This document shows positions 12,848 to 48,865 of a stretch of DNA of 64,000 nt, piece after piece. The translations under genes were made by a program, and so were the position numbers. Source of the stretch: Hyunsoonleella aestuarii (GTDB taxonomy: Bacteria; Bacteroidota; Bacteroidia; Flavobacteriales; Flavobacteriaceae); the NCBI RefSeq assembly GCF_006148925.1, contig NZ_VAWB01000001.1, positions 1,020,001 through 1,084,000 on the forward strand, written 5' to 3'. Numbering within the stretch: the first letter of the stretch is position 1; every line of letters starts with the position of its first letter. Below the pieces are notes generated by a model that searched no databases, had not been told where the DNA came from, and was given only the letters and a program-made list of their open reading frames with translations.

Positions 12848-12885
12848 AACCTGATGTATTTACTTATAATTAATAACATGTTTTT

Positions 12886-12893: not shown

Positions 12894-12948
12894 TAATGTC
12901 TGTGTTACTGTATAAAATAATTCCATTCGAAACTGATAAAGATTATAC

Positions 12949-12962: not shown

Positions 12963-12997
12963 ATTTTAGGTTTCCAAATCTCTCTTCAATGCTCAAA

Positions 12998-14368: not shown

Positions 14369-14444
14369 AATATGTAGTTTAAATCACAAAACATGTGAAT
14401 CATTATTTAATTATTTATGACTTGATAGAAATAATCAAAAGCAA

Positions 14445-15620: not shown

Positions 15621-15623
15621 TCT

Positions 15624-18727: not shown

Positions 18728-18745
18728 AATTTTATTGTATTAAAA

Positions 18746-20059: not shown

Positions 20060-20090
20060 ATATCTATTTTTTTGTTTGGTTAGTTATTTT

Positions 20091-22769: not shown

Positions 22770-24510
22770 TTAATTCACTTATAACAGCCTGATAAGGCTT
22801 TAATGTAACTATCCCATTATTATTTGATAAACTGTTGTAGTTATTTATGAGTGTCGCTTCTATTTTTTTGGTTTCTGGAAAATCAATTTTAGAATCATGA
22901 TCCGTAAAATTCAATAATATTAATAATTCTCTTCCATCAAGCGTTCTTGTAAACGCATAAGTCTCATTGTTGTCTTCATCCAACAATTGATAATCACCAT
23001 AAACCATTATTTTATTCTCATTTCTTAACTTAACCATTTTCCTAAAGTGATTTAAGACACTATTTGGATCTTTATCTTGAGCAGCTACATTTATATTTGT
23101 AAAATTTTCATTTACTTTTTTCCAAGGGTTTCCTGTTGAAAAGCCAGCATTTTTTTCATCATTCCATTGCATCGGTGTTCGTGAGTTCTCACGAGAATTA
23201 TAGTTAAGCTGCTTCATAAACTCGTCCAGATCTCCACCATTTGCTTTGGCTCTTTGGTATTCTCCTAAAGCTGCTACATCGACATATTCTTTAATGGTTG
23301 GCATATCGATATTCGTCATTCCTAACTCGTCTCCGTAATAGGTATATGGCGTACCTCGCATACTCAATAGAAATGTATTGAGCATTTGTGTAGATACCGT
23401 TCTAAACTCTGGCCTTGGGTTCCCAAATCTATTTACCAAACGTGAATTATCATGATTAGATAGAAAAATAGCTAGCCATCCTTTTTCCGAAAAAGCCTTA
23501 TCCCATTTAGTAAAAACCTCTTTAAATTGCTTTAAAGTATAACCCTCTGTTGTTCTCGCCATATCGACATACTCAAAGTGATAGGCCGTTTGTAGTTCCT
23601 TTCTATCTTCATCTACAAGGTCATGAGCGTCTTGTAAGGTGGTTCCCGCGCCTTCGGCAACGGCAAAAACATTATAAGGCTCCATAACTTCCTTATACAT
23701 TTCGTTTAAGTACTCGTGTAATTGAGGTCGCATAGCATACCATTTAATGAAATCTTTTTCGTGGCCTTCAGGGAATTCTGGATAACTAGTATCCTTACTT
23801 GCAAATTGAAAGGCATCCATACGAAAACCGTCAACCCCTTTTTTTGCCCAAAATTTCATAATATCATATACTTCTTGTCTAACATTAGGGTTCTCCCAAT
23901 TTAAATCTGGCTGTGCTTCTGCAAAAGTGTGTAAATAATATGCATTTGTAGCTTCAACATAATCCCAACCTCCTTCTGGGTCAAAAAGACTATGCCTGTG
24001 TGGTGGTTCGCCCTTTTCTGCTGGCCACCAATGGTAATAATTATAATATTCGTTTTCTCTAGAGCTACTTGCTTGTTTAAACCAATCATGCTCATTACTA
24101 CTGTGGTTTACAACTACATCGAGAACAAATTTAATACCCCGCGATTTCATGCCGGCTAACATATTTTCAAAATCTTCCATGGTGCCATACCTAGGATGAA
24201 TAGCTCGGTAATTACTAACATCATAACCATTATCAACAAGTGGAGACTCAAAAAACGGGTTCATCCAAACCATAGTAATTCCCAAACTTTCTAGATAATC
24301 AAGCTTTTCCATAACTCCTTTAAAATCTCCAAAACCATCACCGTCGGAATCCTTAAAGCTTTGTGGATATATTTGATATAAAACCCCTTCTTTCCACCAA
24401 GTTTTTGATTCTATATTAATTGTTTGGTCTTTCAATTCTGTCTTATCTTCTTTATCCTTACATGCTGTTGTGCAGATAATAGTCAAAACTACAATGATTA
24501 AATTCTTCAT
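22762..24510 (-). CDS. GH13 alpha-glucosidase (oligo-1,6-glucosidase-like) lipoprotein
   Basis: 582 residues. Lipoprotein signal with Cys17 (CTTACKDKED), hence periplasmic or surface. It is a full GH13 exo-glucosidase: a calcium loop DSDGDGFGD, region I DVVVNHSS, nucleophile Asp232 (GFRMDAF), acid/base Glu286 (AVAEGAG) and Asp354 (LSNHDNSR). VVNHSS after region I is typical of alpha-glucosidases acting on small alpha-linked oligosaccharides or sucrose-like substrates. First gene of the 11.5-kb operon running down to 12998, with a LacI-type operator 104 bp upstream. Confidence 0.93.
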   Translation of the reverse strand: MKNLIIVVLTIICTTACKDKEDKTELKDQTINIESKTWWKEGVLYQIYPQSFKDSDGDGFGDFKGVMEKLDYLESLGITMVWMNPFFESPLVDNGYDVSNYRAIHPRYGTMEDFENMLAGMKSRGIKFVLDVVVNHSSNEHDWFKQASSSRENEYYNYYHWWPAEKGEPPHRHSLFDPEGGWDYVEATNAYYLHTFAEAQPDLNWENPNVRQEVYDIMKFWAKKGVDGFRMDAFQFASKDTSYPEFPEGHEKDFIKWYAMRPQLHEYLNEMYKEVMEPYNVFAVAEGAGTTLQDAHDLVDEDRKELQTAYHFEYVDMARTTEGYTLKQFKEVFTKWDKAFSEKGWLAIFLSNHDNSRLVNRFGNPRPEFRTVSTQMLNTFLLSMRGTPYTYYGDELGMTNIDMPTIKEYVDVAALGEYQRAKANGGDLDEFMKQLNYNSRENSRTPMQWNDEKNAGFSTGNPWKKVNENFTNINVAAQDKDPNSVLNHFRKMVKLRNENKIMVYGDYQLLDEDNNETYAFTRTLDGRELLILLNFTDHDSKIDFPETKKIEATLINNYNSLSNNNGIVTLKPYQAVISELNE

Positions 24511-24677: not shown

Positions 24678-25595
24678 TTATTCTTGCGTTCTTATGGGCA
24701 TGTATATTTCGGCTTCCCAATCGAGTGGATTGCCGCCCTGATGGGGATCATTCAAATATATCTCAATTATAGACTTTTCTATATTAATATTATTTCTATT
24801 GGAATAATCTAAAATGCGATACCAACCTAAATGAGACATGTTATAATTTCCATTAAACACAGTCTTTAAAGCAAGATGCTCTTTAATAGATTTAAAAAAC
24901 AGTTGCTTATTCTCAGGATATTTTTCTCTATGCTCTAATGGAAAACAAAAATTAAATTTAATTTTTTCACTTTCTGTGTCCCAATAAGTAACTTCCGAAA
25001 AAGGATGTCCAGATAATTCAATATTATTATTCTTAGCATAGTCTGTTAAAACACTAATATTGCTAACCATAGTCAACGCTTTGCTTGATAAATCTGATTC
25101 TAAGGAAATACATGCACAGTTAATAAATGGAACTTTCGTTTTTGATATAGAAGATATTTTATGTCGTTTACTCTGCTCTTCTATTTTGTTGTTCAACTCT
25201 TTAACTTTTGATATTCTTTTTGCTATGAACGCATTATTACCAAATAATGCTCGAATATTTTGACTAAAGTTATTCTTAGAATCTTTGATTTTAAGCGTTA
25301 CGACCGTAATACTATCATTTTCCTTTTTAATTGTCCAATTCAAATTTACAATTGAATCTCCGTTTTTTAATTCTTGGTAAACCGATTCAAATGGCGTTTT
25401 TTTCAAATTTGAAACAACCTGTTGCTCTCTTTTTGATCTCCCATCATTCCAGTTAATAATTTCATTATAAACTATAACTGGAGTTTGCTTGGTTTTAAAG
25501 GTAATCTTATAATTATAATCCTTGATGAAAAAATACCATATCCCAATAGCAATAATTGCTATTGAAAGAATTTTTAAAATTTTTATTACTTTCAT
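24678..25595 (-). CDS. Membrane-anchored protein with SRPBCC-like and GyrI-like (effector-binding) domains
   Basis: 305 residues. One N-terminal membrane helix (ILSIAIIAIGIWYFF, about 10-24) is followed by a beta-rich segment (about 28-120) like a polyketide-cyclase/SRPBCC domain. The C-terminal half ends in NMSHLGWYRILDYSN and PLDWEAEIYMPIR, which resembles the GyrI/AraC effector-binding fold that holds small ligands. No DNA-binding domain is present. It is the last gene of the SusCD-VCBS run and directly abuts the haloperoxidase-like gene. The function is unknown. Confidence 0.65.
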   Translation of the reverse strand: MKVIKILKILSIAIIAIGIWYFFIKDYNYKITFKTKQTPVIVYNEIINWNDGRSKREQQVVSNLKKTPFESVYQELKNGDSIVNLNWTIKKENDSITVVTLKIKDSKNNFSQNIRALFGNNAFIAKRISKVKELNNKIEEQSKRHKISSISKTKVPFINCACISLESDLSSKALTMVSNISVLTDYAKNNNIELSGHPFSEVTYWDTESEKIKFNFCFPLEHREKYPENKQLFFKSIKEHLALKTVFNGNYNMSHLGWYRILDYSNRNNINIEKSIIEIYLNDPHQGGNPLDWEAEIYMPIRTQE

Positions 25596-26930
25596 TTAAT
25601 TAACCATATTCAACCTTTCAACAACTAAATCGCCTACTTTATTACCTTGCCCTATTCCTTCCTCTACCGCGGCTCTATAATGAATTCCACCATACATCCT
25701 GCTTATAGCCGCCTCTTCTGAAGCCTGCTTAAAGGAATTATAGGTTCTAATTGGTAGTCCATATCGCAATTCACTATCATCTAAAAAAGTGAAATTTTCA
25801 CCAAATACATCTGTAAGCACGGTAGCAGCAGAACCAGACACTACGGAGTGGCCACTAGTATACTCAGGAAACGGTGGTGTTTGTAATATTGGTTTCCATT
25901 CATCATCAAAATATTTATTGATAAGTGTTTCTGGTCTAACTAAATTGCTTCGGTATTTTTCATCCCAACAACTAATAAAAGCATCAGCAATTCCTATTGA
26001 CGATTTTGTGTAAGCATAAATTGATTTGTTAACATCTGAATCCGTATTCTTACATGCTATCTGTGTAATTAAAATCCAATGTGCTCCAGGTGTGATTTTT
26101 TTAACCGCAAACATAAGGTGCCCTCTGTTTACTGATACATAAGGGTTACAATCCCAAAATTTTGCTATTTGGACTTCCTCTGATTCATCTCCAATTTGAA
26201 TCATTTCATTGGTAATTTCATAGACTTCTCTTAACTCTTTATAAAATTTAGAGTTCTTATCCATTGAAAATTCAGGAGGAGGAATTGGTTTAAATTGAGA
26301 CGCTGAATCTAACACGAATGGTCTAATCTTATTCCAATGAGGTTCTAATCCATCCATATACGATGGAGGAGTCGGTTGCCACCTCCAATCTTCTGAGGAA
26401 TTAACCGTATACTTAGGCATAGTTCGCGTTTGATTATAATTATCTTTATCCATCCAATTCGAAATGTATCCAGTCACATCAGAAGCATAAGCTTTTGCCT
26501 CTTCAAACTCGATAGGATTAGCAGTTTCCCACAAACTATAAAGGCTGTCTTGATATACGTCTAACTTTTCTTCAGAAAAAATAAGTTTTTTGCTCAAGTC
26601 GAGATGTGTCATAAAAGCAGCCAACTGATAATTAATCTGGTCTTCGTTTTTAGGTTTTGGTATATTACCAAGAGTGTTTATCTGACCACTTAAAGAATTA
26701 TAGTTTTCATCATTTTGGGCAATAATTTCGTAAGCCGCTATGTTAGGATAAGCAAATACACGACTTGCTACTGGAGGAGAAAAAATATCATGAATCATAA
26801 CATCGATAACTCTATTGACCGAATTATGAAAATTATTAGCAGTAACCTTTATCGGTTCGTACTGTTTTTCACAAGATGTGATTATTAGAAAAGATGCTAT
26901 TAATACTAAAAACTTGTTCGTTGAATTCAT
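25596..26930 (-). CDS. PAP2 / vanadium-dependent haloperoxidase-like lipoprotein
   Basis: 444 residues from the ATG at 26930. An upstream in-frame ATG (26975) lies inside the previous gene and would bury the lipoprotein signal FLIITSC (Cys20). All three phosphate/vanadate-binding motifs are visible in order: KYRSNLVRP, TSGHS and SRMYGGIH. They define the PAP2/haloperoxidase fold. The long N-terminal helical region is typical of the haloperoxidase branch rather than short PAP2 phosphatases. Either vanadate-dependent halide oxidation or phosphatase activity is possible. It follows the third FG-GAP lipoprotein by 10 bp. Confidence 0.82.
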   Translation of the reverse strand: MNSTNKFLVLIASFLIITSCEKQYEPIKVTANNFHNSVNRVIDVMIHDIFSPPVASRVFAYPNIAAYEIIAQNDENYNSLSGQINTLGNIPKPKNEDQINYQLAAFMTHLDLSKKLIFSEEKLDVYQDSLYSLWETANPIEFEEAKAYASDVTGYISNWMDKDNYNQTRTMPKYTVNSSEDWRWQPTPPSYMDGLEPHWNKIRPFVLDSASQFKPIPPPEFSMDKNSKFYKELREVYEITNEMIQIGDESEEVQIAKFWDCNPYVSVNRGHLMFAVKKITPGAHWILITQIACKNTDSDVNKSIYAYTKSSIGIADAFISCWDEKYRSNLVRPETLINKYFDDEWKPILQTPPFPEYTSGHSVVSGSAATVLTDVFGENFTFLDDSELRYGLPIRTYNSFKQASEEAAISRMYGGIHYRAAVEEGIGQGNKVGDLVVERLNMVN

Positions 26931-26940
26931 TGTTAAAGAA

Positions 26941-29900
26941 TTAATTTGATAACTCATATACTTGGACTCTATCATTATTAATAGTTACAAGTAAATACTT
27001 TTTGCCTTTATTATTTATTATGTTGAGATGTCTAGCAGAATAATTACTTAACTGTAATCCTAATTTATTACCTAGCACAATCTCTTCCTTTGATTTTATA
27101 ATTGCCCCTGGAAATGAATCAAATCTACCATGAAAAGGCGTAACACCAAAATAATTTCCTGCAGCGAGTACCTCATTTTTTCCATCTTGATCAAAATCAA
27201 AATTTAAAAAACATGTTATTGGTGATACTTGCAACTCTTCTTTAAAAGGCACAAAAGAAAAACCATTACCATCATTCCTTAAATAACCTGAGCGCAGTTC
27301 ATGCACCTCTAATTCAATAGCCTTTTCTAAAGCTTGCTTGTCAAAAACTAATTCGATTGGTTTTCCAGCAAAATCTTTATATGACGAAAATTTTTTTCTT
27401 AAACTGACTATTTGGGTTGATAAGTCATCGAAATTTAACAACGGATAGTATTTACCTTCTTTTTCTGTGCAAACTATAGTTTCTGTACTACCATTACCAT
27501 CAAAATCAGAAAAGTACATTATCATTGGTGCCTCATTTGAGGCTTTGAATTTTGTATTATTTCCCCAATTACCTAATAAATAATCTTTGTCACCATCATT
27601 ATCAATATCAAACGCTTCAATACTTTGCCAAAGTCCATTTAGTTCTTCATTATAAACTTTTTCTTCTTTTAGCTTTCCTTTGTCATTCTTGAAGAACTTG
27701 GGCGCCATCCATTCTCCTAAAACTATCAGATCGGTATAGCCATCATTGTTATAATCATCCCAAATGGCATCGGTAATCATACCCGCTTTTTCTAATGATT
27801 TATTTTCTGCTAATGAAAATTCACCATTATCATTATTTAATATATAAGAACTTGGAATGCTGCCAAAGTCATTTGAAACAACATTACTTCCAACGAAAAT
27901 ATCAAGATCACCATCCTTATCAAAATCATTCGTAATGGTAACCGAAGCATTTTCAAAATAATTTGGTAATGCTTGTGAAGTAAAACTTGAATCCTTATAA
28001 ACATAATAACTGTCCAATAATGGTTTCATTTTATTGTAAAAATCTGCTCCTCCAGTTCCTATAACTATATCATTCCTTTTGTCATTATTGAAATCAGCAA
28101 TTAAAGAAACAACATCTTCTTTTACAGATTCGTTTTTTAAAATATCAATTTCAGCTTCGGAAAATTCTTCATTAGAATTTAAGTAGACTTTTGACTGCAT
28201 GTGTTTGGAGCTTCCAAAGAATATATCGTCCAATCCATCATTATCTAAATCTCCAACGGAGGTAGCTGGACCACGATCTGAAACTTGATAAGGAATTAAT
28301 TTTTGCCTATTAGAGTCTACATAATTGTCTTCTTTGTGAGTGAAATCAATTCCTAAATTATTTTCAACCTTATTAAATAATTGTTTGTCATTTCCTTTTA
28401 AGACTTCATAATTAAATACTGATGTATTACCTAAGTTTATTTCGATTGTTTGATTTACTTCAACATTAGATGATGTTTGAAATGTTTTATTTGGCCAGAC
28501 AATTTTTAATGAATCAACAATCTGTTGATTCCCTAATCCAAAATGAATTACTGGTTCCGAAGACGCCTGAAAACCTCTAACTGTATATAACTCTTTATAT
28601 TGCATTACACCATTACTGTATAAAAATATTTTAGCTCCAATTCCAAGGCTGTTAGGCTTTTTATATTTAAGCTTTATTTTTAAAAAATTTGCCTTCTCGT
28701 TAATGGTGTTTTCATAAATTGACACTGGTGAATTTAGATTATTTATCACTAAGTCTAAATCGCCATCGTTGTCCAAATCGCCTAGAGCTGTTGCCCCAGA
28801 AACAGTTTTATCGTCCGTGATCCAAGAACCCGATTTATCTTCAAAAGAAAAGCTCTCTGTTCCTTTAAAAATGTAATTATGAACTTTGCCTGAGGGCATC
28901 AAATCTAGGGCTTCCTGATCGACAAGTTTTGTTTTACTAATTTTAACTTGGATTTTATCACTTGATGCAAACTTTATAAAATCAAGGTCGTTTGGTCGTT
29001 TTGGTATGCCGTTTGAAACAAATAAATCTTGTTCTCCATCTTGATTGTAATCTGCAAATAGCGCACTCCAACTCCAGTCTGTACTAGAAATCCCACTCAG
29101 TAAAGCGGTTTCCAAATAAGGAGTGTCTTGCTGATTTATAAAGAGCATATTACGAGTAAACTGATAGTTATATCCGTATTGCTGAATTCTTAATTTTTGA
29201 ATTTGTATGTTATCATCACCTTCAGAAGATTTTAACACGGTTTCATCTTCAGCAAGCATGTCAAGCGAAATAAGATCTGGCCAACCATCATGGTTTATGT
29301 CGGCAACATCGTTACCCATTGAAAACCTTGAAGTGTGACCAAAATAGTTTCTACCACTTTCGGTAAATGCTCCATTTCCATTATTCAAATAATAATAATC
29401 ATCTTCATGAAAATCGTTACCAACAAAAATGTCTGGAAATCCATCTTGATTAAAATCTGCAATTGAGACCCCTAGTCCATAGCCATTAATTCCTCCATAA
29501 ATACCGGCTTCTTCACTCACATCAATAAACTTATTTCCATCATTACGTAAAAGCTTATCTCCTGTTTGATAGTTTCTTTTGTACCTTAAATTTGATCTTC
29601 CAAAAGATTCTTGGGTGTGAATGGCATGATTTAATAAATAAATATCTAAATCACCATCAAGGTCAAAATCTAAAAAAGCAGCGGAAGAGCTGAATGTATC
29701 AAAATCTAATCCATATTTAGCCGCACTTTCTGTAAATGTATTATCTCCATTATTAATAAACAGTTCATTGTATCCTATAAATCCATTTATACCTACTACA
29801 GCACAGACATAAATATCTAGAAAGCCATCTCCATTAACATCTCCCATTACTGCACCTGTGTTCCAAGTACTATTGCCAAAAACATTTGCTTTTTCTGTAA

Positions 29901-30189
29901 TATCTTCAAACTTTAGGTTCCCTTTATTTAAAAATAATCTATTCTTAACCTGATTACCTGAAAGATAAATATCTGAAAGACCATCGTTATTTATATCTCC
30001 AACAGCTACACCACCCCCATTATAGAAATACAAATAATCCAAAATATTTAAATCATCTGTTTCTGTTAATGCATTTGTAAAGTCGACACCTGTATTTTGA
30101 GGAGATGTATTTCTAAAAATAACTTCATCTTTACCTCCACAACTAAATAAAATTAAAAATGATACTATTGAAATATAGAATTTACTCAT
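26941..30189 (-). CDS. FG-GAP/VCBS repeat lipoprotein with ASPIC/UnbV domain, copy 3
   Basis: 1082 residues. Lipoprotein leader MSKFYISIVSFLILFSC with Cys17. It has two blocks of FG-GAP/VCBS beta-propeller repeats bearing calcium loops of the type DINNDGLSD, DLDNDGDLD and DFDKDGDLD. Between them, about residues 510-600, lies an ASPIC/UnbV domain (TVRGFQASSEP, then HFGLGNQQIVDSLKIVWP). The C-terminal block has GNWGNNTKFKAS and ends YSARHLNIINNKGKKYLLV. These proteins are thought to bind ligands at the surface; the exact role is unknown. It overlaps the gene upstream by 8 bp and is a paralogue of the next two entries. Confidence 0.88.
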   Translation of the reverse strand: MSKFYISIVSFLILFSCGGKDEVIFRNTSPQNTGVDFTNALTETDDLNILDYLYFYNGGGVAVGDINNDGLSDIYLSGNQVKNRLFLNKGNLKFEDITEKANVFGNSTWNTGAVMGDVNGDGFLDIYVCAVVGINGFIGYNELFINNGDNTFTESAAKYGLDFDTFSSSAAFLDFDLDGDLDIYLLNHAIHTQESFGRSNLRYKRNYQTGDKLLRNDGNKFIDVSEEAGIYGGINGYGLGVSIADFNQDGFPDIFVGNDFHEDDYYYLNNGNGAFTESGRNYFGHTSRFSMGNDVADINHDGWPDLISLDMLAEDETVLKSSEGDDNIQIQKLRIQQYGYNYQFTRNMLFINQQDTPYLETALLSGISSTDWSWSALFADYNQDGEQDLFVSNGIPKRPNDLDFIKFASSDKIQVKISKTKLVDQEALDLMPSGKVHNYIFKGTESFSFEDKSGSWITDDKTVSGATALGDLDNDGDLDLVINNLNSPVSIYENTINEKANFLKIKLKYKKPNSLGIGAKIFLYSNGVMQYKELYTVRGFQASSEPVIHFGLGNQQIVDSLKIVWPNKTFQTSSNVEVNQTIEINLGNTSVFNYEVLKGNDKQLFNKVENNLGIDFTHKEDNYVDSNRQKLIPYQVSDRGPATSVGDLDNDGLDDIFFGSSKHMQSKVYLNSNEEFSEAEIDILKNESVKEDVVSLIADFNNDKRNDIVIGTGGADFYNKMKPLLDSYYVYKDSSFTSQALPNYFENASVTITNDFDKDGDLDIFVGSNVVSNDFGSIPSSYILNNDNGEFSLAENKSLEKAGMITDAIWDDYNNDGYTDLIVLGEWMAPKFFKNDKGKLKEEKVYNEELNGLWQSIEAFDIDNDGDKDYLLGNWGNNTKFKASNEAPMIMYFSDFDGNGSTETIVCTEKEGKYYPLLNFDDLSTQIVSLRKKFSSYKDFAGKPIELVFDKQALEKAIELEVHELRSGYLRNDGNGFSFVPFKEELQVSPITCFLNFDFDQDGKNEVLAAGNYFGVTPFHGRFDSFPGAIIKSKEEIVLGNKLGLQLSNYSARHLNIINNKGKKYLLVTINNDRVQVYELSN

Positions 30190-33100
30190 TTAATAAAAAT
30201 ATTTTAGGTTTTTCGTTATTTATAGCTGCAATAATATATGCTCTTCCATCATTGTCTTTGAATTGCAACAAGTGTTTAACTTCGCCTTTAATGAAAAAAC
30301 CGCTTTCTTTATAGTCTTGCCATTCAAATTCTAAGTCACCATTGTTCAATAATATACTTCCAAAATTTGAATCCAATCGAGAAAACTGTGGTTTAAACTC
30401 AAAGTTGTTCCCTGCCATTACAAGATCAATATTTCCGTCATTATTTACATCTTCACACAGAATACCACAAACACATGAAAACTGTACTTCCTTTGGAAGG
30501 GCTTTTATATTAAAAACACCATTACCATTATTTATAGCAATTATAGTTTCTCCAATATTTAATGTTTTTACAATTGAGTTCTCAATTACATCTTGAGCAA
30601 ATAATTGGTCTATAGATTTTGAAGCATATTCTGAAGCCTTTAAATTTTGTTTTTTAAGTTTCACCATCTGACCAGTCAATTCCTTTTTCATTAAAATTGG
30701 ATAGTCTTTATTATCAACAAACTGAGTAGTTATTTGTTCTATAGTACCATTATCATCAAAATCATTAATCCATAATTTCATTGGGCTATCCTTAGAGGCT
30801 TTATAAAAGGTGTTCGTGCCTTGATTACCAATTATTAAATCTAAGTCTCCATCCTTATCCAAATCGGAAACTTCGATAGCGCTCCACATACCTGATAAAT
30901 CATCTAAACTAGACTGGAATTTAACGAGCTGTTTCCCGTTATTTAAAAATATTTTTGGCGTGTCCCATTCTGAAATGGTAATTAAATCTTTCTTACCATC
31001 AGTATTTATATCTGCCCACACAGCCCCTGTAATCATTCCAGCGTCCTTTAAATCGTATGCATATCTCTGTGTACCGTCAACAAATGAGCCATCCCCTTCA
31101 TTAATAAGTAGCAAATGATCTGGATTGAGCCCGTAAGTTCCTACAACACTCCTAGAGCCGATAAAAACATCTATATCGCCGTCATTATCATAATCATTTG
31201 TGCTAATAACAGAAATATTATTTCTAGTGTTTGGAATTTTGACTTCTGATCTTTTAAAGTTTCCAAGTCCATCATTTAAATAAAGTCTGGCAACATTATT
31301 TTTATCTTGACCTACTTCATTGCTTCCTGAGCCCACCATTAAATCTAAATCACTATCGCCGTCTACATCAAAAAATGACGCAGCAGTATCTTCATAAATA
31401 TCATCTTTCGAAAAAGATTTTTGAGTAGATAACCTAACTTTACCGTCGCCGATATTTAAGTACAAAGCCCCAGACTGAGATGATCCTCCTCCAATATAAA
31501 CATCTTCATTCCCGTCGTTATTAATATCACCTATAGCCATTGCAGGTCCTTCTTGAGATAACATTTTAGAAATTAAACCTTCATAATCGAAGTCAGAATA
31601 ATTATTCTCAGAATGGGTTATTAAATCATCATTTTGTAATTCTTTTAAAAATGCATCTTGACTACCAGGTGTAATTGGTCTGTAAACTTCTTTTGCACTT
31701 GATTGCTCAACTGTAATTTGTTGATTAGCCTTTACGTTTAAAAGCTTCTGGGTTTTATTATCCGGCCAAATTATGCGCAGGGAGTCAATAGTATTAACAT
31801 CTCCAAGTCCAATATTCATAATATAATCCATGGATGATTGAAACCCTCTTGAAGGCATTAGTTCTTGCACAATAATATTGTTTTGTGAGTGCAATTCCAA
31901 TTTGCTACCAATTGCAAAATTGTTAGGAGTATTACCATTAAGCTTTATCTTAATATAATTATTTGAGGTTAAAGATTCAGTGTTGTTTTCATAAATGAAC
32001 GATTTCATGTTAACATTATTTACTACTAAATCTAAATCGCCGTCATTATCTAAATCACCATACGCCACTCCATTCGATAAAGTTGGTGTTTCGAAACCCC
32101 ACTCTTTATTTGCGTTATTAAAGGTAAGGTTTCCATTGTTTTTAAAAGCATAATTTGGTTGAGGCTTAATAGGCATTTTATTGATAACGGAATCTATTTC
32201 TTCTTTTTGCCCTGTTAATACCATATTGTGTAATATGTCATTGGCAAAAAAATCCATGAAGTCCAAATCAGTGAGATCATGATTAATACCATTGGTGACA
32301 AAAATATCTTTAAACCCGTCATTATCCATATCAAAAATCAATCCTGCCCAGCTCCAATCTGTGGCAGAAACACCACTAAAGTGTGCTATTTCAGAAAAAG
32401 ATTTATTGCCATTATTTAACTGTAATGAATTTTGAATGTATTGTTGATAGAAATCCTTCCCTTGCTTTAATTTGAAGATATTATATCCTTCAAACTCCAT
32501 TACTGTTTTAATTCTTTTATCACTTTCTGGAAGCATGTCAGTTACAAAAACATCAATATTACCATCATTATTTACATCAGCCATATCCACACCCATTGCC
32601 GAAATATTTATATGAGATGCCCAATTTTTAATGTCTTCTGTAAAGGTGCCATCATGATTATTTATGTAGAGATAATCCCGCTCATAAAAATCATTGGTCA
32701 CATAAATATCTGGATATAAATCTCCATTAACATCACTTACCAAAACACCTAACCCAAAACCTATTAAACTTCCATAAATTCCAGCTTCTTCACTTACATC
32801 TGTAAAATAGCCGTTATCATTTCGCAGTAACATATCTCCCATGCCACGAAAGATTTCAGGAACATTTTCCCAATTTTCTGCTCTTTTATCTCTTTGCTCT
32901 GCATATCCTAATGTATTTACAGGAATGTTACTATTGTTTAAAATATATGCATCTAAATCGCCGTCTTTATCATAATCAAAAAATGAGGCGTGTATAGTAA
33001 AACCAGACTTCGCAAGATTGTATTCTTTGGCTTTTTCTGTAAAAGTTAAATCTCCATTATTGATAAACAACTCGTTATCATGATTATCTGCTTCCATATT

Positions 33101-33544
33101 GCCAGCATTACAGACATAAATATCTAAAAACCCATCTCCATTTATGTCGACCATAACAACCCCTGTAGTCCATGGCTTTTTTCCAAGAACCCCAGCTTTA
33201 TGTGAAATATCTTCAAACCTAAAATCACCTTTGTTTAAATAGAGTTTATTTTCTCCCATGTTCGCAGTAAGGTATACGTCTGGGAGTCCATCGTTATTTA
33301 TATCTCCAATAGACACGCCGCCTCCATTATAGAAATTTCTATACTTAAAGATATTCATGTCTTTTTGGTTAATTACCTCATTAGTGAAGTCTATACCAGT
33401 GTCTTCCGGATTTGTAAGTGAAAACAAGGGCTTATTTATAACTTCAGGCCGTTGTTCTTCCTTCTTATCAGAATTGCAAGAATTGAGCATTAACGCAAGA
33501 GCTATTGCCAACAAAATGCTTGTAAATTTTAAATGTAATCTCAT
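30182..33544 (-). CDS. FG-GAP/VCBS repeat lipoprotein with ASPIC/UnbV domain, copy 2
   Basis: 1120 residues, the longest of the three. Leader ends ALMLNSC (Cys23). Same architecture as its neighbours: start motif NFYNGGGVSIGDINNDG, repeats with calcium loops (DINGDGFLD, DYDKDGDLD, DVDGDSDLD), central ASPIC segment MPSRGFQSSMD and IDSLRIIWPDN, and a C-terminal GNQGTNTFYKAS. Where the other two copies have one tryptophan-containing GNWG, this copy has GNQG, and it also has an extra cysteine cluster (FSCVCGILCED) near residue 1030. Its start overlaps the stop of copy 1 by 4 bp. Confidence 0.88.
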   Translation of the reverse strand: MRLHLKFTSILLAIALALMLNSCNSDKKEEQRPEVINKPLFSLTNPEDTGIDFTNEVINQKDMNIFKYRNFYNGGGVSIGDINNDGLPDVYLTANMGENKLYLNKGDFRFEDISHKAGVLGKKPWTTGVVMVDINGDGFLDIYVCNAGNMEADNHDNELFINNGDLTFTEKAKEYNLAKSGFTIHASFFDYDKDGDLDAYILNNSNIPVNTLGYAEQRDKRAENWENVPEIFRGMGDMLLRNDNGYFTDVSEEAGIYGSLIGFGLGVLVSDVNGDLYPDIYVTNDFYERDYLYINNHDGTFTEDIKNWASHINISAMGVDMADVNNDGNIDVFVTDMLPESDKRIKTVMEFEGYNIFKLKQGKDFYQQYIQNSLQLNNGNKSFSEIAHFSGVSATDWSWAGLIFDMDNDGFKDIFVTNGINHDLTDLDFMDFFANDILHNMVLTGQKEEIDSVINKMPIKPQPNYAFKNNGNLTFNNANKEWGFETPTLSNGVAYGDLDNDGDLDLVVNNVNMKSFIYENNTESLTSNNYIKIKLNGNTPNNFAIGSKLELHSQNNIIVQELMPSRGFQSSMDYIMNIGLGDVNTIDSLRIIWPDNKTQKLLNVKANQQITVEQSSAKEVYRPITPGSQDAFLKELQNDDLITHSENNYSDFDYEGLISKMLSQEGPAMAIGDINNDGNEDVYIGGGSSQSGALYLNIGDGKVRLSTQKSFSKDDIYEDTAASFFDVDGDSDLDLMVGSGSNEVGQDKNNVARLYLNDGLGNFKRSEVKIPNTRNNISVISTNDYDNDGDIDVFIGSRSVVGTYGLNPDHLLLINEGDGSFVDGTQRYAYDLKDAGMITGAVWADINTDGKKDLITISEWDTPKIFLNNGKQLVKFQSSLDDLSGMWSAIEVSDLDKDGDLDLIIGNQGTNTFYKASKDSPMKLWINDFDDNGTIEQITTQFVDNKDYPILMKKELTGQMVKLKKQNLKASEYASKSIDQLFAQDVIENSIVKTLNIGETIIAINNGNGVFNIKALPKEVQFSCVCGILCEDVNNDGNIDLVMAGNNFEFKPQFSRLDSNFGSILLNNGDLEFEWQDYKESGFFIKGEVKHLLQFKDNDGRAYIIAAINNEKPKIFLLNE

Positions 33545-36500
33545 TTATTTTTCTTTAAAAAAACAGGTGTACCATTATTAATAGCGATGATATAGTATGT
33601 TTCATCATCAAAATTAATTTTCTGAATGTCTCTTGCTGAACCAGATACATCGAAGTCTTGATTTTTAAGGAGTGTAAAAAAACCTTCTTTATTGTTTAAC
33701 AAAATACTACCGTGTGAAGCGTCTAATTTACCTAATTGTGTACTAATATCATAAGTGTTTCCCGTTAAAAATATATCTAAAAAACCATCATCATTATAGT
33801 CATCTATATGCAAAGCGTTTATTGAAGAAATTTGGGTCATTAATGGCAACTTATGTTTCTTAAACGTGTTGTCACCAAGGTTTTCAAAATAACTACTAGA
33901 AAGATCGAACACTTGCTTTTTATTTGACTCATCAATTTTATTTTGAGGTAATAATTCAGAAAACGAAGCGTTTGCAAAATCTTTATAGCTTAAGAATTTT
34001 TTGTTAAGAAAAGGCAGTTGCTTTGCTAATTCATCTTTTGATGAAAATGGCGTTTCTTGTCCCTCATAATAATATGTTATTATTGGATCTGTATTCCCGT
34101 TATTATCAAAATCATTATTATAAAGTGTTATTGGCTCATTTTTGGATGCTTTTAACCTAGTATTAAGACCCCAGTTTCCAACTACTAAATCCATATCTCC
34201 ATCTTTATCAAAATCTGCAACTTTAATTGTATTCCACCAGCCATTAGTTTCAATAAGGTTACTTTCTTTATGTAACGCTAATTTTTCTCCATCATTTATA
34301 AATATAGAAATAGGCATCCAATGCCCGCAAACCAAAGCATCTACATAGGTATCATTATTAATATCAATCCACACAATATCTTCGACATTCCCAACACCCT
34401 GAAGGTCTTTTGCAAAAGTTTCACTTACATCGGTAAAAGACCCTTTTCCATTATTTTTAAAAACATATTGTTTTGGCGTATTTCCAAATTTCCATGGAAC
34501 TAGGTTTGATGATATTGAAACATCTAAATAACCATCATTATTAATGTCTACAGCTGTAACCTTTGAAGCATTAACCTCGACATTATTAAATTGAATGGTA
34601 TCCTTTTTAAATTCATTTCCATCATATAAATACAATCTTGGATTCAATGGTTTGCCATTTTTAAATTCGTTGCCGCCACTTACCACTAAAATATCTAGAA
34701 ACCCATCTAAATTTGCATCAAAAAAAATACTACTTACATCCTCATTTATCGCGTCTTTCAGAAAAAGATCTTCTTGATAAGAGATAAATTGCCCATTTTC
34801 GTTTTGAATAAACAATTGACTACTTTGTGCCTTTGCTCCACAAATAAATAGATCATCAAGTCCATCTTCATTGATATCGGCTACAGACATTTTTGGTCCG
34901 TGGTTTGTACTTGCATAAGGAATTAATGGATCCCTATTAAACTCAATAGAAGTAGGATCCTTATGTGTAAACTCAAATAAAGGGCTAGAGTTAACTAATA
35001 AAGATTTACGCTTTAATTTTTGATAATACTCATAATAATTTTTTGAGGCATTTTTAAAATCTGCTTCGATTCTATAATTAGCTGGAATATCTTTAATTGT
35101 TTGAAAAGCACCATTAGACCAAATAACCTCTAGGGAATCAATTTTAGGGAATGCTCCTAAACCTATATTCATTAAAGGTTCCACTGACGACAAATATCCT
35201 TTAGTAGTATAATTCTCTTCGGTAATAATTTTATCTTTTAAATAAACTTTTACTTTTGATCCGATTCCAAATATATTTTTTTCAGGCCCCTTAAACTTAA
35301 TCTTTAAGAACCTGTTATCTGGGTTATACTTTTCTGAATTATTTTTTAAAATAAAAGCTGGCTCGTTAATATTATTAATTACCAAGTCCATGTCTCCATC
35401 ATTGTCAAGGTCTGCATAAACGCCACCATTACTAAAAGAAACATTATCATTTGTCCAATCTCCTGTCTTGTCTAAAAACGTATTATCCCCTTTATTCTTA
35501 AAAATATAATTCTTTACTTTTTTAGGTGGAATTTCATTAGATAAAGCCAAATTCTTGTCAGATATACTTTTACCCAATTGTTTTTGAATATTCTCATTCG
35601 AAATGAAATTAATAAAATCCATGTCATTAGTGGCTCCTAAAATACCGTTGGTAATGTACATGTCTTTATTGCCATCATTATCAAAATCGCAAACTATTGG
35701 ACTCCATGACCATTCTGTAGCAGCAACCCCACCTAAGTGTGCTATTTCGCTAAAACTATTATTTCCATTGTTAATGTGTAAGGTGTTTTGCATGAATTGA
35801 GGTGAATAACCATTTTTCAAATAATACTCATACATTTGATAAGGGTACTCTAAGCCAGAAGTTTTATAAGTCTTTAAGTTTTCTGGCAGCATGTCAAGAG
35901 AAATAATATCCATGTTACCATCATTATTTATATCGCTAATTGCATTTCCCATTGAAAAATGAGAGGTATGCCCAAGCTGTAAATAATTATTGGAGATAAC
36001 ATCCTTGAATGTTTTATCTTTTTGATTGATATATAAATAGTCATTTTCAAAAAAATCATTACCAACATAAATATCGGGGTATCCATCATTATTAATATCT
36101 CCAGCAGACACTCCTAATCCATAACCTATTTTGCCTTGAAAAATTCCAGAATCAAAACTTACATCGCTAAACTTCCCGTCAACATTTTCATAAAATCTAT
36201 CTCCAGAAAGTGAATCTAATTTAGTTCTGTATTTACCTTTACCGTAGTTAGAATTTGGATGCGTGGAATGGTTTAACAAGAACATATCTAAATCGGAATC
36301 CTGATCATAATCTAAGAAAATGGCCTGAGTAGCATAAGTCTTAATGTTAAGACCATACTCGCTTGCACTCTCTTTAAAAACTGGCACTCCTTCTTTTAGC
36401 CCTTGATTTACATATAATAAGTTATGCCCATCTATACCAGGATAATTGCCTAATTTACTAATATAAATATCTAATAGACCGTCGTTGTTAATATCAATAA

Positions 36501-36846
36501 CCGTTGAGCCAGTTGTCCAATTCGAGCTATTATCAATATTTGCGGACAATGTAATATCCTCAAATTCAAAATTTCCTTTATTTAGGTATAACTTATCGGC
36601 CGCTTGGTTGGCGACAAAGTACAAATCGCAAAAACCATCATTATTAAAATCGGCAGCAGATACACCTGCTCCATTATAAAAATAAAGGTAGTTTAATATG
36701 TTAAAATCCTGCTTATTAAAAATTGTATTTTGAAAATCTATATGAGATGACTCAGTACTAATAGCGGTAAATAAAACATCTCTATCTTTCTTACAGGAGA
36801 ACCATATTATTACTGATAAGACCAGATAATATTTAATTTTTTGCAT
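33541..36846 (-). CDS. FG-GAP/VCBS repeat lipoprotein with ASPIC/UnbV domain, copy 1
   Basis: 1101 residues; leader ends IIWFSC (Cys18). N-terminal propeller block with YFYNGAGVSAADFNNDG and many DxDxDG-type loops; central ASPIC segment TTKGYLSSVEP and IDSLEVIWSNG; C-terminal propeller with GNWGLNTRLKAS. First of the three tandem paralogues. It is preceded by a stem-loop and by its own -7 box only 4 bp before the ATG, so it may begin a separate transcript from susCD. Confidence 0.88.
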   Translation of the reverse strand: MQKIKYYLVLSVIIWFSCKKDRDVLFTAISTESSHIDFQNTIFNKQDFNILNYLYFYNGAGVSAADFNNDGFCDLYFVANQAADKLYLNKGNFEFEDITLSANIDNSSNWTTGSTVIDINNDGLLDIYISKLGNYPGIDGHNLLYVNQGLKEGVPVFKESASEYGLNIKTYATQAIFLDYDQDSDLDMFLLNHSTHPNSNYGKGKYRTKLDSLSGDRFYENVDGKFSDVSFDSGIFQGKIGYGLGVSAGDINNDGYPDIYVGNDFFENDYLYINQKDKTFKDVISNNYLQLGHTSHFSMGNAISDINNDGNMDIISLDMLPENLKTYKTSGLEYPYQMYEYYLKNGYSPQFMQNTLHINNGNNSFSEIAHLGGVAATEWSWSPIVCDFDNDGNKDMYITNGILGATNDMDFINFISNENIQKQLGKSISDKNLALSNEIPPKKVKNYIFKNKGDNTFLDKTGDWTNDNVSFSNGGVYADLDNDGDMDLVINNINEPAFILKNNSEKYNPDNRFLKIKFKGPEKNIFGIGSKVKVYLKDKIITEENYTTKGYLSSVEPLMNIGLGAFPKIDSLEVIWSNGAFQTIKDIPANYRIEADFKNASKNYYEYYQKLKRKSLLVNSSPLFEFTHKDPTSIEFNRDPLIPYASTNHGPKMSVADINEDGLDDLFICGAKAQSSQLFIQNENGQFISYQEDLFLKDAINEDVSSIFFDANLDGFLDILVVSGGNEFKNGKPLNPRLYLYDGNEFKKDTIQFNNVEVNASKVTAVDINNDGYLDVSISSNLVPWKFGNTPKQYVFKNNGKGSFTDVSETFAKDLQGVGNVEDIVWIDINNDTYVDALVCGHWMPISIFINDGEKLALHKESNLIETNGWWNTIKVADFDKDGDMDLVVGNWGLNTRLKASKNEPITLYNNDFDNNGNTDPIITYYYEGQETPFSSKDELAKQLPFLNKKFLSYKDFANASFSELLPQNKIDESNKKQVFDLSSSYFENLGDNTFKKHKLPLMTQISSINALHIDDYNDDGFLDIFLTGNTYDISTQLGKLDASHGSILLNNKEGFFTLLKNQDFDVSGSARDIQKINFDDETYYIIAINNGTPVFLKKNK

Positions 36847-36938: not shown

Positions 36939-38495
36939 TTAGTACCCTGGGTTTTGAACTAAGTTAGGGTTAGATAATAAAGCATTTGCAGGAATTGGAT
37001 ATAAATTTTTAGTTACATCTCCTACAGCGCTAGGATCCATAAACTCATATTCCTCAACAAATTTACCGAAACGGATTAAGTCAGTACGTCTAACCATTTC
37101 AATATATAATTCTCTACCACGTTCTGCTAATAAATCGCTTTCAGAAACACTACCAAGTGGTTGAGCGCCTCTTAGGGTTCTTAACTCATTCACCAAAGAG
37201 GTAGGATCGTCTCCAGTACGCATTAAAGCCTCAGCTTTCATTAAGAGAGCGTCCGCATATCTAAACAGAATAACACCTCCATAAAAAGCACCATTCGATG
37301 GATGATATTTTAATACACGTATACCAGTAACATCACTATTACCTACTAGTCCTGGAAGGTCTTTTGTAAATACTAGTGGTTTATTAGCTCTTGCCTGAAT
37401 TGGTGAACCAGAAGCGTTATATTGTTGCCCAATACCAAAACCATAGAAGAAACCTTGATTTGTCGCATCAGCGTTAGACGCATCTGGAACCCATCCTCTA
37501 CGTTCTTCTTGATTATCACCTACATAGTTTGAGTTTGGATTTCCTTCAAAAGAATCATAAAAAGCTCCTAAAGTAGTAAATCCATTCCATCCACCACCAC
37601 TGTTGTCTGTAGACGGCATATTATAATGTAATCCTCCCCACATTCTATTTCCTGTTCCAGCAGTAGTATACCATACACGCTCATTATTTGCTGTTCCATC
37701 AAACAGATCGAAATAACCAGACTGCAAAGCAAATCCATCGGCTGCAATAGCATCAACTGCAGAAATAACGTCAGCCATATCCGAGCTATTAGGCGCTCCC
37801 TCACCTCTATAAATACCAGCGTTTAACATAACTCTAGCCTTTAAAAAGTTTGCGGCAGCTTTACTAGCCAAATTTGTTGTACCAGTAGGCCCAATAGTTG
37901 GTAAATCAGGCATTGCATCAGAGATATCTTGTAATATAAATGCTAATGCCTCAGTGTTAGATAAAACTCTTGGGTTAATTTCTGGACCTTCATCAACTTC
38001 TCTAAAAGGTACTTGACCATAAAGGTCTAAGATAACCCACATACTATATGCTCTTAAAAACTTTGCTTGAGCCAATACATCAGCAGGAGCATTACTTCTT
38101 GAATCAATAATTTGATTTGCTAAAAATATATCTGAATTAAAGGCGTTCCATACATTCAAAACATATTGGTGAGAAGCAGGCCATGTGTGCGTATGTAATA
38201 CTCTCCATATACCATTATCCCCCCAGTCTGTTCCTCTTGTTGGTATTAACAACTCATCAGAAGAAACTTCTTGTAAGGCATAATATCCATCCTGTGGTTC
38301 AATTTGACCACGAATTGCATTATAAAGATTATCCAATGAGCTCTGAGCATCAGCAACTCCTGTAAATCCATCTCCAGTGGATTCAGAAACAATCGAGTCA
38401 TCAACAATCAAATCTAGATCGGTACATGACAATACAAACATTGCTATAAATGCATATAACAATGTTACTTTCATTTTACTTGTTCTTTTTTTCAT
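36939..38495 (-). CDS. susD: SusD/RagB-family outer-membrane glycan-binding lipoprotein
   Basis: 518 residues. Lipoprotein leader ends AMFVLSC (Cys24); an alternative start at Met8 would also work. The typical SusD body follows: N-terminal helices with TPR-like repeats, NLASKAAANFLKARVMLNAG, and a C-terminal RYADALLMKAEALMRTGD, VNELRTLRGAQ and LYPIPANALLSNPNLVQNPGY. The last element is the family's classic end. It sits as a lid on SusC and captures sugars at the surface. It is 13 bp behind susC. The sugar is not shown by sequence, but the locus suggests sucrose/fructo- or alpha-gluco-oligosaccharides. Confidence 0.95.
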   Translation of the reverse strand: MKKRTSKMKVTLLYAFIAMFVLSCTDLDLIVDDSIVSESTGDGFTGVADAQSSLDNLYNAIRGQIEPQDGYYALQEVSSDELLIPTRGTDWGDNGIWRVLHTHTWPASHQYVLNVWNAFNSDIFLANQIIDSRSNAPADVLAQAKFLRAYSMWVILDLYGQVPFREVDEGPEINPRVLSNTEALAFILQDISDAMPDLPTIGPTGTTNLASKAAANFLKARVMLNAGIYRGEGAPNSSDMADVISAVDAIAADGFALQSGYFDLFDGTANNERVWYTTAGTGNRMWGGLHYNMPSTDNSGGGWNGFTTLGAFYDSFEGNPNSNYVGDNQEERRGWVPDASNADATNQGFFYGFGIGQQYNASGSPIQARANKPLVFTKDLPGLVGNSDVTGIRVLKYHPSNGAFYGGVILFRYADALLMKAEALMRTGDDPTSLVNELRTLRGAQPLGSVSESDLLAERGRELYIEMVRRTDLIRFGKFVEEYEFMDPSAVGDVTKNLYPIPANALLSNPNLVQNPGY

Positions 38496-38508: not shown

Positions 38509-41500
38509 TTAAAATTGTGCGTTAAGTCCTAAAGTAATCGTTCTTGGGTTAGGATAAGCTGCATAATCAATACCAGCAGTTGGTAATCCATTTAATAAGC
38601 CTGAATTTGCTGCAGAGGTGCTTACCTCAGGGTCTAAACCAGGGTAATCGGTTATTACAAATAAATTCTGCCCGTTAACATATAATCTTAAATTTGTAAA
38701 AGCAGCACCTTCTTTTAGGTCGAAATTGTACCCAAGGGTTGCATTTTGAAAACGGATAAAATCACTTTTATATAAGAATCTCGTAGAAACTGCCGCTTCA
38801 GCATTTCCAGCTTCTCCATTGGTTAATACGTTTCTAGTAACATTACGTCCACCAGCGATAGAACCAGCAGTGAATAAAGCGTTTTCCGTATTAAAATAAT
38901 TGTAACCACCAAATTGAGCGTTAAAATAGGCTGAGAAATCCCAGTTTTTATAAGTAACTGATGTAGAGAATCCACCTGTTACATCAGGTAAGGCGCTTTT
39001 ACCTACAAACGTCTGATTATCACCAATAGGCTGTCCATTAGAATCAAATCCTTCAAATTCTCTTAAGAAATACGAAAATAAAGGTTGACCTCCGGCTAAA
39101 ATTTGAGAAAACGCCTGCGACAATCCTTGACCATAAATAGTTCCTGCTGGAATTAATCCTCCGAAATCTTGTAATTCGTTTTCGTTATAAGCCATGTTAA
39201 AATTAACATTCCACGTTAGATCATCTTCATAAATAACATCATAATCAATTGAAAATTCAAGACCTTGATTTAATAAGGTTGCATCTAAGTTTTGAAAAAA
39301 CGTTGGTTGAGGTGAAGGTTGGGCGGCCTGAATTAAAAATAATAAATCATTAGTTTCTCTTCTATATACATCAATACTACCAGATAACCTATCATTATTA
39401 AAACCAAAATCTATACCTGCACCATAAGAAACTGTTTCTTCCCATCTTAAATCTGGGTTAGCAAACGAAACTGTAGATAACCCTGGAACATTTATATTTC
39501 CATTATTTTCAATACCAGCTCCAGCAAAACGTTCTCTTTGAATAAAATTACCATATCCTAAACCATCTTGATTACCAGTTATACCAGCACTTAATCTAAT
39601 TTTAAGAGTGGAAACATTGTCCCCAATAAAATCTTCTTCGTTTATTTTCCAAGCCACGGCTCCAGAAGGGAAGTAACCATACTGATTTGACCCACCAAAT
39701 TTTGATGAACCATCTGCTCTAATTGTACCAGTAAACAAGTATTTGTCTGCAATTGTATAATTAATTCTAGCAAAATATGACTGTAATTCGTCGGTTACGT
39801 CATAAGTATTAACAGCAAGCGACTTTACAGGAACCCCCGCTGGACCACCTTGATTAGTTGTTGCTGGCGTTGGAAATAACCTATTTACAAACACACCATT
39901 AGAAGTATAGCCATACTGCTGATAACCTCCTTGGATGCCGCCTCCTACTAAGTCAATAGCAGTTTCCATATCACTGTACATTTCTTGTAAAGCTAATGTT
40001 CCAAAGCCCCATCCAGTGGCATCAAAACCATTTCTATTAAAGCTCTGAAATGAATAACCTGCTAACACATCTAATTTAGAATTTCCAAATTCTTTTTTAT
40101 AATTAACTGTTAACTCCAATAACTGATTCTCTGTGTTTACATCTCCTTTGTATGCACGACCTTCGCCAAAAATTCCATCACCAATATTTCTTGCCAAAGC
40201 ACTTCCTGCAATATCTCTTGTAGAATTGGATTTATCATATCCAAGATTCAACTTCGCAGAAAACTCAGAGCTAATTTGATAATCAGCAAAACCATTTAAC
40301 AAAATTCTACTTGTCTCAGTATTACTACTAACATAATTGAAAAATGTTGCAGGACTAATTAATCCATTAGTCTCAGCAAAATCAGGATCGGTAGGCCATG
40401 TTGGATTAGCAGAGTAAGCTGCACCTAATAAATCTCCTTGGAAACCTGCACTACCACTTAAGCCAGGTCCAAAATTATTCTCTTGCGACCAAGTAGATTG
40501 TATTCCAACTTTTAACTTATCGTCGAAAAAACGATGGTTAGCATTTACCCTAGCTGTTATTCTTTCTAAACCAGAATTTCTTATAATTCCATTTTGTAAA
40601 CCGTAACCAAAAGTAGCTCTTACATTACCGTTTTCATATGAATTAGAATAAGCTAAACTGGTATTGTTAGATACGGCAGTTTGTAAAAGGTAATCTTGCC
40701 AATCTGTATTGTTCCCATAATCGGCTCCAACAGGATCACCTCCATATTGTTGAACAGCTTGCAAGAACTCAGGTCCATTTAAAAGATCATATCTCTCACG
40801 ATCTTTAGACACACTAATTGTTTGATTGAATTCCCATCTATCGCCTTGAACACCTTTACCAGATTTAGTGGTAATAATTACAACACCATTTGCACCTCTT
40901 GAACCATAAATAGCGGTTGAAGATGCATCTTTTAAAACACTAATGCTTTCAATATCATTAGGGTTAATAAAGTTTAAAGGGTTAGAAGCACTACTGGAAC
41001 CAAAACCAATATCAGCGCCGTCGGCAGAAGTACTATCACCAGCTAACGGAACACCGTCTACTACAAATAATGGATTATTCCCAGATCTAATAGATGCTGT
41101 ACCTCTAATTCTAATATTAACTGCAGCACCAGGTTGTCCACTCGATTGAACAATCTGCACACCAGCAGTCTTACCTTGAATAAGTTGCTCTGGAGAAGCA
41201 ATAACCCCTTTGTTAAAGTCTTCTGCTTTTACAGAAGCGACAGAGCCTGTTGCATCTTTCACAGTGGTTGTACCATAACCTATAATAACAACCTCATCAA
41301 GTTGCGCGGTATCTTCCTCCAAAGTCACATTAATTGTGGTTTGATTACCTACAGCTACCTCTTGAGTTTTGAAACCTAAGAAACTGAACACGATAACCGC
41401 ATCGGAAGAAACGTTTTCTAGTTTGTAAATCCCATCGAAGTCTGTCTGAGCTCCGATAGTAGTTCCTTTTACAAAAACGTTTACTCCTGGTAAGGGTCCT

Positions 41501-43017: not shown

Positions 43018-43031
43018 TCCTAAATATAGAT

Positions 43032-46627: not shown

Positions 46628-46779
46628 ATAACTCAAGAGAAGTTAAACATTATTAATTGCTTTGATTTTCTCTTAAGATAAAATAAATAACTTATTGTAA
46701 TGTCAATAAAAATTAATAATAAGCCTTTTAAAAATTATTGATTAATACCTTTTGGTGCAATCAATTAAAAGAAAAAATT

Positions 46780-48816: not shown

Positions 48817-48865
48817 AGGGTAAGAATAAATTGTTGTAACTTTCTTTAACTTTTTAAGTTCAATT

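Follow-up and report, generated by a model that had tools for sequence, protein, structure and literature searches.

One of the questions raised by a 64,000-nucleotide stretch of the Hyunsoonleella aestuarii genome (contig NZ_VAWB01000001.1, positions 1,020,001 to 1,084,000; hereafter the window) is why a locus for simple sugars should carry three giant propeller proteins and a haloperoxidase. Seven genes follow one another in the order susC-susD-ASP1-ASP2-ASP3-VHPO-GyrI, all on the minus strand, where ASP1-3 are proteins with FG-GAP repeats and an ASPIC domain, VHPO is a vanadium haloperoxidase and GyrI a GyrI-like protein; the assignments come from the open reading frame (ORF) list and a Pfam and TIGR scan of the window, the Pfam part of which covered 36 of the 39 ORFs of at least 150 residues. 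What holds such a set together, and what might it do for a sugar consumer? That the genes form a conserved module is well supported by their recurrence in other genomes; their function is answered more tentatively.

A conserved gene module beside SusC and SusD

The set opens with SusC (38509..41601, 1030 residues), a TonB-dependent outer-membrane transporter that matches TIGR04056 at 666.6 bits and has CarbopepD_reg, plug and barrel domains, and with a SusD-like surface lipoprotein (36939..38495, 518 residues) whose SusD_RagB and SusD-like_3 matches lie above cut-off; the two genes are 13 bp apart. These are followed by ASP1 (33541..36846, 1101 residues), ASP2 (30182..33544, 1120 residues) and ASP3 (26941..30189, 1082 residues), by VHPO (25596..26930 from its likely start) and by the GyrI-like protein (24678..25595, 305 residues). 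A preliminary description of this DNA had placed three paralogues with an FG-GAP and ASPIC layout, a haloperoxidase-like protein and a GyrI-like membrane protein behind SusCD, an arrangement that Pfam confirms, and the overlaps of 4 and 8 bp it gave between the ASP genes are exact by ORF coordinates. Its 10-bp gap between ASP3 and the haloperoxidase holds if VHPO starts at an internal ATG at 26930, the ORF itself opening at 26975 (25596-26975, 459 residues).

Conservation can be read from two collections of loci. One holds 62 loci, 22 from relatives and 40 from the family, each fetched as about 20 kb with neighbours annotated by clustering; the other holds 80 named loci with 10-kb flanks, of which seven repeat loci of the former, giving 135 distinct loci together. 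With its own genome included each time, VHPO occurs in 20 of 99 relatives, in 182 of 397 genomes of the family and, at a different cut-off, in 74 of 395 genomes of the phylum; it was not found in the one genome of the same genus (G001). An ASPIC gene adjoins VHPO in 53 of the 62 loci, in 67 of the 80 named loci and in 114 of the 135 distinct ones, the named count taking in full-length VHPO only and so leaving out L128, where the adjacent gene is a 97-residue remnant. Within the fetched stretch an ASPIC gene is present in 56 of 62 loci; of the other six, two (L038, L066) have a piece of an ASPIC-family gene where the stretch ends and four (L042, L046, L047, L080) have none. GyrI is present in 39 of the 62 loci and always lies directly after VHPO (39/39), and it does so in 61 of the 64 named loci that have it. 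The preliminary description had proposed a search for the same five-gene order elsewhere: ASP1-ASP2-ASP3-VHPO-GyrI is found in full in 27 of 62 loci, and the string ASP2-ASP3-VHPO-GyrI in 57 of the 80 named loci. Nor are the genes scattered without linkage to SusCD, since SusC or SusD is seen within the fetched 20 kb in 41 of the 62 loci; the 10-kb flanks of the named set, with 13 of 80, are too short to judge this linkage.

The same picture is obtained when the question is turned around. Among 107 ASP3 orthologues VHPO lies directly downstream in 98, which marks ASP3 as the paralogue tied closest to the enzyme. The nine others comprise a contig end (G271), a second copy (G258), two with VHPO about 6 kb further downstream (G211, G395), four in which the VHPO match listed lies on another contig (G327, G345, G264, G409) and one genome with none among the matches listed (G047). 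Median intergenic distances are -8 bp between ASP genes, 2 bp between ASP and VHPO and 4 bp between VHPO and GyrI. Named carriers include three Zobellia species, Arenibacter palladensis (L118) and A. nanhaiticus (L175), Cellulophaga baltica, Maribacter and Dokdonia. A second lineage of the module, represented by 10 of the 62 loci, is without GyrI and has a gene of about 190 residues between the ASPIC genes; such inter-ASPIC genes encode lipoprotein-like proteins of about 190-200 residues with no Pfam match (L043:12422-12991, L037:17614-18216). A further variant is seen in L128 (3182-11353), which contains ASP2-ASP3, GyrI, a symporter and an intact VHPO, with the remnant right after ASP3 possibly representing a decayed first copy.

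A chance neighbourhood is rejected on these adjacency counts (114/135 loci, 98/107 in reverse and 11/20 in distant families). Because there are only 0-8 ASPIC genes per genome in a sample of 12 genomes, chance adjacency of ASPIC and VHPO is estimated at below 1% for genomes like those sampled, the distant genomes lying outside it. Inherited synteny as the sole cause is likewise rejected, as a gene outside both the module and the sugar set is common to only 330 of 1891 locus pairs. In one clade L287, P931 and the genes around them recur as flanks (P931 in 22/62 loci); they are not counted as part of the module. Co-divergence among six families in 23 loci (Pearson r 0.25-0.76) was calculated without a species-tree control and is not used as evidence.

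Beyond the family, 20 loci were hand-picked for breadth, and they cover 17 further families of the phylum. Here an ASPIC gene is directly beside VHPO in 11 and within three ORFs in three more (L176, L179, L187), and two loci (L181, L182) read SusC-SusD-ASPIC(s)-VHPO with nothing between. Three loci from three families carry a cytochrome c- or copper-monooxygenase-like protein between SusD and ASPIC (L183:5715-7614, L186:12542-14656, L188:12433-13803), with a redoxin-like neighbour beside it in L183 and L186; most of these Pfam matches are weak.

The haloperoxidase and its probable partner proteins

The identity of the enzyme follows from its closest solved relative. In a sequence search against solved structures, VHPO matches 4cit/4usz with an E value of 1e-205 over residues 18-458, nearly its full length. 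It is 63% identical to a homologue from Zobellia uliginosa, which differs from 4CIT at 7 of 450 positions by a hand count of the alignment (98% identity) and which sits in the same ASP1-ASP2-ASP3-VHPO-GyrI order (L096). The crystallised 4CIT/4USZ protein, a haloperoxidase by its deposition, is reportedly the Zobellia vanadium enzyme that Fournier et al. (2014) published as an iodoperoxidase. The vanadate-site residues K340, R347, S374, G375, H376, R426 and H432 are kept in all 136 distinct homologues (143 enzyme rows compared, window included), and the Zobellia enzyme shares them; its active-site residues, reportedly numbered K324, R331, S358, H360, R410 and H416, map onto the window residues with an offset of 16. 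W337 and F369 are present in 136/136 and D338 in 130/136 distinct homologues, and presumably correspond to the active-site surroundings of the 4CIT/4USZ enzyme. What had been described as haloperoxidase-like can thus be named more firmly: judged by its sequence, VHPO is a vanadium-dependent haloperoxidase of the 4CIT/4USZ type. Iodide would be its substrate in this species by analogy with the published name of the relative. Within the literature passages and listings covered, the 2014 paper being outside that scope, no mention was found of a SusCD or ASPIC context, or of genetic partners, for the Zobellia haloperoxidase.

The ASPIC proteins are equally distinctive. In each of the three, FG-GAP repeats (FG-GAP_3 nine times) and a single UnbV_ASPIC domain (527-593 in ASP1, 544-611 in ASP2) score above the Pfam cut-off, which places them in the CRTAC1/ASPIC family; ASP2 also has a CRTAC1 match. 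The AlphaFold2 model of ASP3 (pLDDT 89.4, pTM 0.90, from a 43-row alignment) predicts a propeller-ASPIC-propeller fold. Residues 21-588 of this model superpose on CRTAC1 (PDB 9etn) with a Z of 38 and a root-mean-square deviation of 2.4 A over 460 residues, and residues 601-1082 form a second propeller whose nearest structures are the LGI1 EPTP domain (Z 29.9) and the propeller of aldos-2-ulose dehydratase (Z 27). The likeness to CRTAC1 is thus a propeller plus ASPIC domain, to which the bacterial proteins add a whole second propeller and a lipid anchor. The dehydratase propeller had suggested a role in sugar dehydration; a sequence search with the ASP profile gave no aldos-2-ulose dehydratase row, which is not proof of absence. 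A loose pattern finds 11-13 DxDxDG-type loops in each protein (13 in ASP1, 12 in ASP2). Loops of this type are the calcium-binding pattern of FG-GAP repeats, and the propellers probably bind calcium.

Anchoring differs in how readily it is recognised. A strict lipobox pattern matches ASP3 (C17), VHPO (C35, or C20 from the internal start) and SusD, and it misses ASP1 and ASP2; by eye, C18 of ASP1 (W-F-S-C) and C23 of ASP2 (L-N-S-C) directly follow a hydrophobic stretch. In all 43 rows of the ASP alignment, which takes in the window's ASP1 and ASP2, the cysteine at ASP3 position 17 is invariant, as expected of lipoproteins, and the genes lie beside that of SusD; ASP1 and ASP2 are accordingly classed as probable lipoproteins. 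The three are only 38-39% identical to one another, below the 47-70% of the 107 ASP3 relatives listed highest elsewhere; the triplication is therefore old, and a recent tandem duplication is rejected.

The genome holds six ASPIC genes, ASP1-3, L054, L053 and L055. Of these, L053 lies near GH17 and GH30 (glycoside hydrolase) genes, and L054 is a single ASPIC gene behind a SusCD pair in a GH20 locus without VHPO; since single ASPIC genes occur in such loci, the basic ASPIC role is not tied to the enzyme. The L055 gene (L055:7947-11912) fuses FG-GAP repeats, ASPIC, DUF6851, VCPO_2nd and a type IX secretion tail, and carries K-x6-RP, SGH and SR-x3-G-x-H in that order. Two more ASPIC-haloperoxidase fusions, of 1348 and 1335 residues, occur in G007 (L196, L197) with K-x6-RP and SR-x3-G-x-H; the middle-motif pattern used on them was too narrow and missed SGH in L055 also. 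As a separate line of evidence, natural fusions of this kind indicate that ASPIC propellers act together with haloperoxidases.

The last gene of the set encodes a protein modelled (pLDDT 89.2, AlphaFold2) as an N-terminal membrane-anchor helix (2-24), a START/Bet v 1-like domain (28-145; Z 10-11) and a GyrI-like domain (146-303) that matches PF06445 at 45.3 bits. The best structural matches of the GyrI-like domain are the rhodamine-binding Rho-tag/CTR107 (Z 19, 9rtm) and the closthioamide-binding CtaZ (Z 18.6). E278 is invariant in 38/38 sequences. GyrI-like proteins share a highly conserved glutamate that is indispensable to the hydrolase lin2189 (PMC5684135), and E278 is probably its counterpart. 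The likeness to CTR107, CtaZ and lin2189 lies in the same fold (Z 13-19) and an invariant C-terminal glutamate, whereas the window protein adds a START-like domain and a membrane anchor. By inference from these relatives, it may bind or hydrolyse toxic small molecules.

Sugar cargo and the possible role of the module

The sugar genes around the module constitute a disaccharide locus by Pfam, with GH13, GH32, GH37 and GH65 enzymes that, together with the adjacent SusC and SusD, mark a SusCD-type uptake locus. Downstream on the minus strand (10170..24510) are a GH13 enzyme (22762-24510), a GH78/MGH1-like protein (20091-22769), three major facilitator superfamily (MFS) transporters, a GH37 trehalase (15624-17498), and GH13, PfkB kinase and GH13 genes. 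Upstream (42136..45960, minus strand) lie a second PfkB sugar kinase, GH32 and a sugar transporter, followed by a divergent GH65 enzyme and a LacI-type regulator (46738..49888, plus strand). Near the locus, at 57006-63102, there are glycosyltransferase, GlgC-like and GlgE-like genes and a 540-residue ORF without a Pfam match, a group that suggests alpha-glucan storage from imported sugar. The N-terminus of SusC (38509-41601) matches the NCBIfam model BamP weakly, probably just through a shared CarboxypepD_reg-like domain. The window resembles SusCD utilisomes and polysaccharide utilisation loci (PMC7618045) in having large lipoproteins and glycoside hydrolases behind a SusC-SusD pair; it differs in that the partner lipoproteins are double propellers and the set includes a haloperoxidase.

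Elsewhere the cargo changes. For instance, in 10 of the 62 loci the module or VHPO is accompanied by genes for an FGGY kinase and a xylose-isomerase-like protein, often joined by one for a sodium:solute symporter, and in 21 by GH13, GH97, GH65, GH100-like or related MFS genes; both sets occur in one locus and 32 have neither in view, and the named relative L167 adds a trehalase. The cargo thus serves sucrose, trehalose and alpha-glucosides, or xylose, and because it varies among loci the constant part is the outer-membrane and VHPO set, the sugar being interchangeable. At certain xylose loci (L037, L040, L066, L080) VHPO is found next to the sugar genes and away from ASPIC, so that its link to sugar use is independent of ASPIC.

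The explanation to which we lean, with a confidence somewhat short of even, is an assembly at the cell surface in which sugar uptake is coupled to the oxidation of iodide, both to dispose of peroxide and to interfere with competitors, the seven genes being one operonic module plugged into different simple-sugar loci. In this process SusCD would import the sugar and the three double-propeller lipoproteins, of the calcium type, would be its surface partners, with at least ASP3 acting as a docking or scaffold partner for VHPO. The enzyme would act at the cell surface beside the transporter, consuming H2O2, which the algal host would supply or the bacterium itself would form by oxidising sugar, together with sea-water iodide to give hypoiodous acid, a reaction that would both remove peroxide and hold off competitors at the site of sugar uptake. 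The membrane-anchored GyrI-like protein would deal with small molecules entering the periplasm, binding or hydrolysing those that are reactive or hydrophobic. There is a physiological parallel in Arenibacter sp. C-21, where iodine uptake needs glucose, O2 and Ca2+, the proposed route is glucose oxidase plus haloperoxidase, and at least five vanadium iodoperoxidase homologues are present (PMC5064120); A. palladensis and A. nanhaiticus carry the module. An operon tied to sugar that holds calcium-type propellers and an enzyme of this type fits these requirements, whether sugar feeds H2O2 formation or induces the operon. Zobellia vIPO3 is up-regulated on Ascophyllum relative to alginate (PMC9296495).

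Several observations weigh against such an assembly. SusC and SusD are not in the fetched stretch in 21 of 62 loci, some of which are cut at the edge; VHPO lacks an adjoining ASPIC gene in 9/62 and 13/80 loci, several of them by xylose genes (L066, L080, L099, L104), and among the 20 distant loci six show no ASPIC gene within view. GyrI lies away from VHPO in 3 of 64 named loci (L128, L150, L163), and the lipobox misses and the VHPO-free L054 locus described above belong on the same side. None of the module genes was recognised as coding for an enzyme that produces H2O2, the weakly matching redoxin and cytochrome- or copper-like proteins of L183, L186 and L188 being only a lead. FG-GAP proteins of marine flavobacteria have also been proposed to serve adhesion (PMC2668756).

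Some of these points are what would be expected if co-regulation were all that joins the genes, namely if algal sugar release coincided with H2O2 or iodine stress, no complex formed and the ASPs were general binding or adhesion proteins at the side of SusCD. VHPO can indeed stand without ASPIC, and ASPIC genes of 1,000-1,200 residues lie without VHPO behind SusCD in at least 10 of 20 cases (a hand count over 12 genomes). The near-obligatory ASP3-VHPO pair (98/107), with its overlapping or abutting genes, and the independent fusions speak for something closer, and co-regulation by itself is considered unlikely. A rather different possibility is that VHPO acts on the imported ligand, in that SusCD and the ASPs bind a sugar conjugate such as an algal phenolic glycoside, VHPO oxidises or halogenates the aglycone, the sugar feeds the cargo genes and GyrI handles the aromatic remainder. 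This is close to the preliminary description, which had thought of a halogenated or sulfated ligand, and it accounts for sugar genes that vary while VHPO and GyrI stay constant, for GyrI fold relatives that bind flat hydrophobic compounds (rhodamine tag, CtaZ-closthioamide) and for the redox-type genes, weak in Pfam, between SusD and ASPIC in L183, L186 and L188. The cargo enzymes, however, serve sucrose, trehalose, alpha-glucosides or xylose, no aromatic-breakdown gene was noticed among the window genes scanned, and there is no known ligand. A sulfated ligand finds no support, with no sulfatase among the 36 ORFs scanned, and a halogenated one is not needed because the characterised relative is named for oxidising iodide. 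Modification of an imported ligand is given a similarly low probability, though it and co-regulation are both rivals to be taken seriously.

PAP2 phosphatases and vanadium haloperoxidases share their fold and metal-site residues, and Pfam names only PAP2 for VHPO, so that the enzyme could in principle be a phosphatase stripping phosphate from a ligand before uptake. This is made very improbable by the 63% identity to a Zobellia protein almost the same as 4CIT, with its deposited and published names, and by the constancy of W337, F369 and, nearly, D338, which presumably reflect the active-site surroundings of that enzyme.

Possible meaning for iodine chemistry in marine Bacteroidota

Returning to the coupling of sugar uptake and iodide oxidation, a stronger version would have SusCD, calcium-dependent propeller scaffolds and a vanadium iodoperoxidase in one sugar-coupled, iodide-oxidising outer-membrane machine that makes hypoiodous acid only while the cell feeds on simple sugar. 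This is given a low probability; if true, it would account for the dependence of iodine uptake on glucose, oxygen and calcium in Arenibacter sp. C-21, and sugar-consuming Bacteroidota would be a general source of reactive iodine. The parts are known and their combination appears to be new, as no literature linking haloperoxidase or ASPIC proteins with SusCD was found in a survey mostly of titles and abstract starts, covering for some topics the best 20 of 186 or 20 of 139 records.

Many marine bacteria keep an iodoperoxidase-related gene in one operon with a sugar importer and two or three giant propeller lipoproteins, an arrangement suggesting a link between sugar feeding and surface halogen chemistry. 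For the double-propeller ASPIC lipoproteins of marine Bacteroidota, which are large and uncharacterised, this provides a first concrete partner, and the crystallised Zobellia haloperoxidase acquires a genetic context in a sugar-uptake module that is found in Zobellia and in other families of the phylum. The module also makes the unexplained need for glucose and calcium in bacterial iodine accumulation testable by gene deletion.

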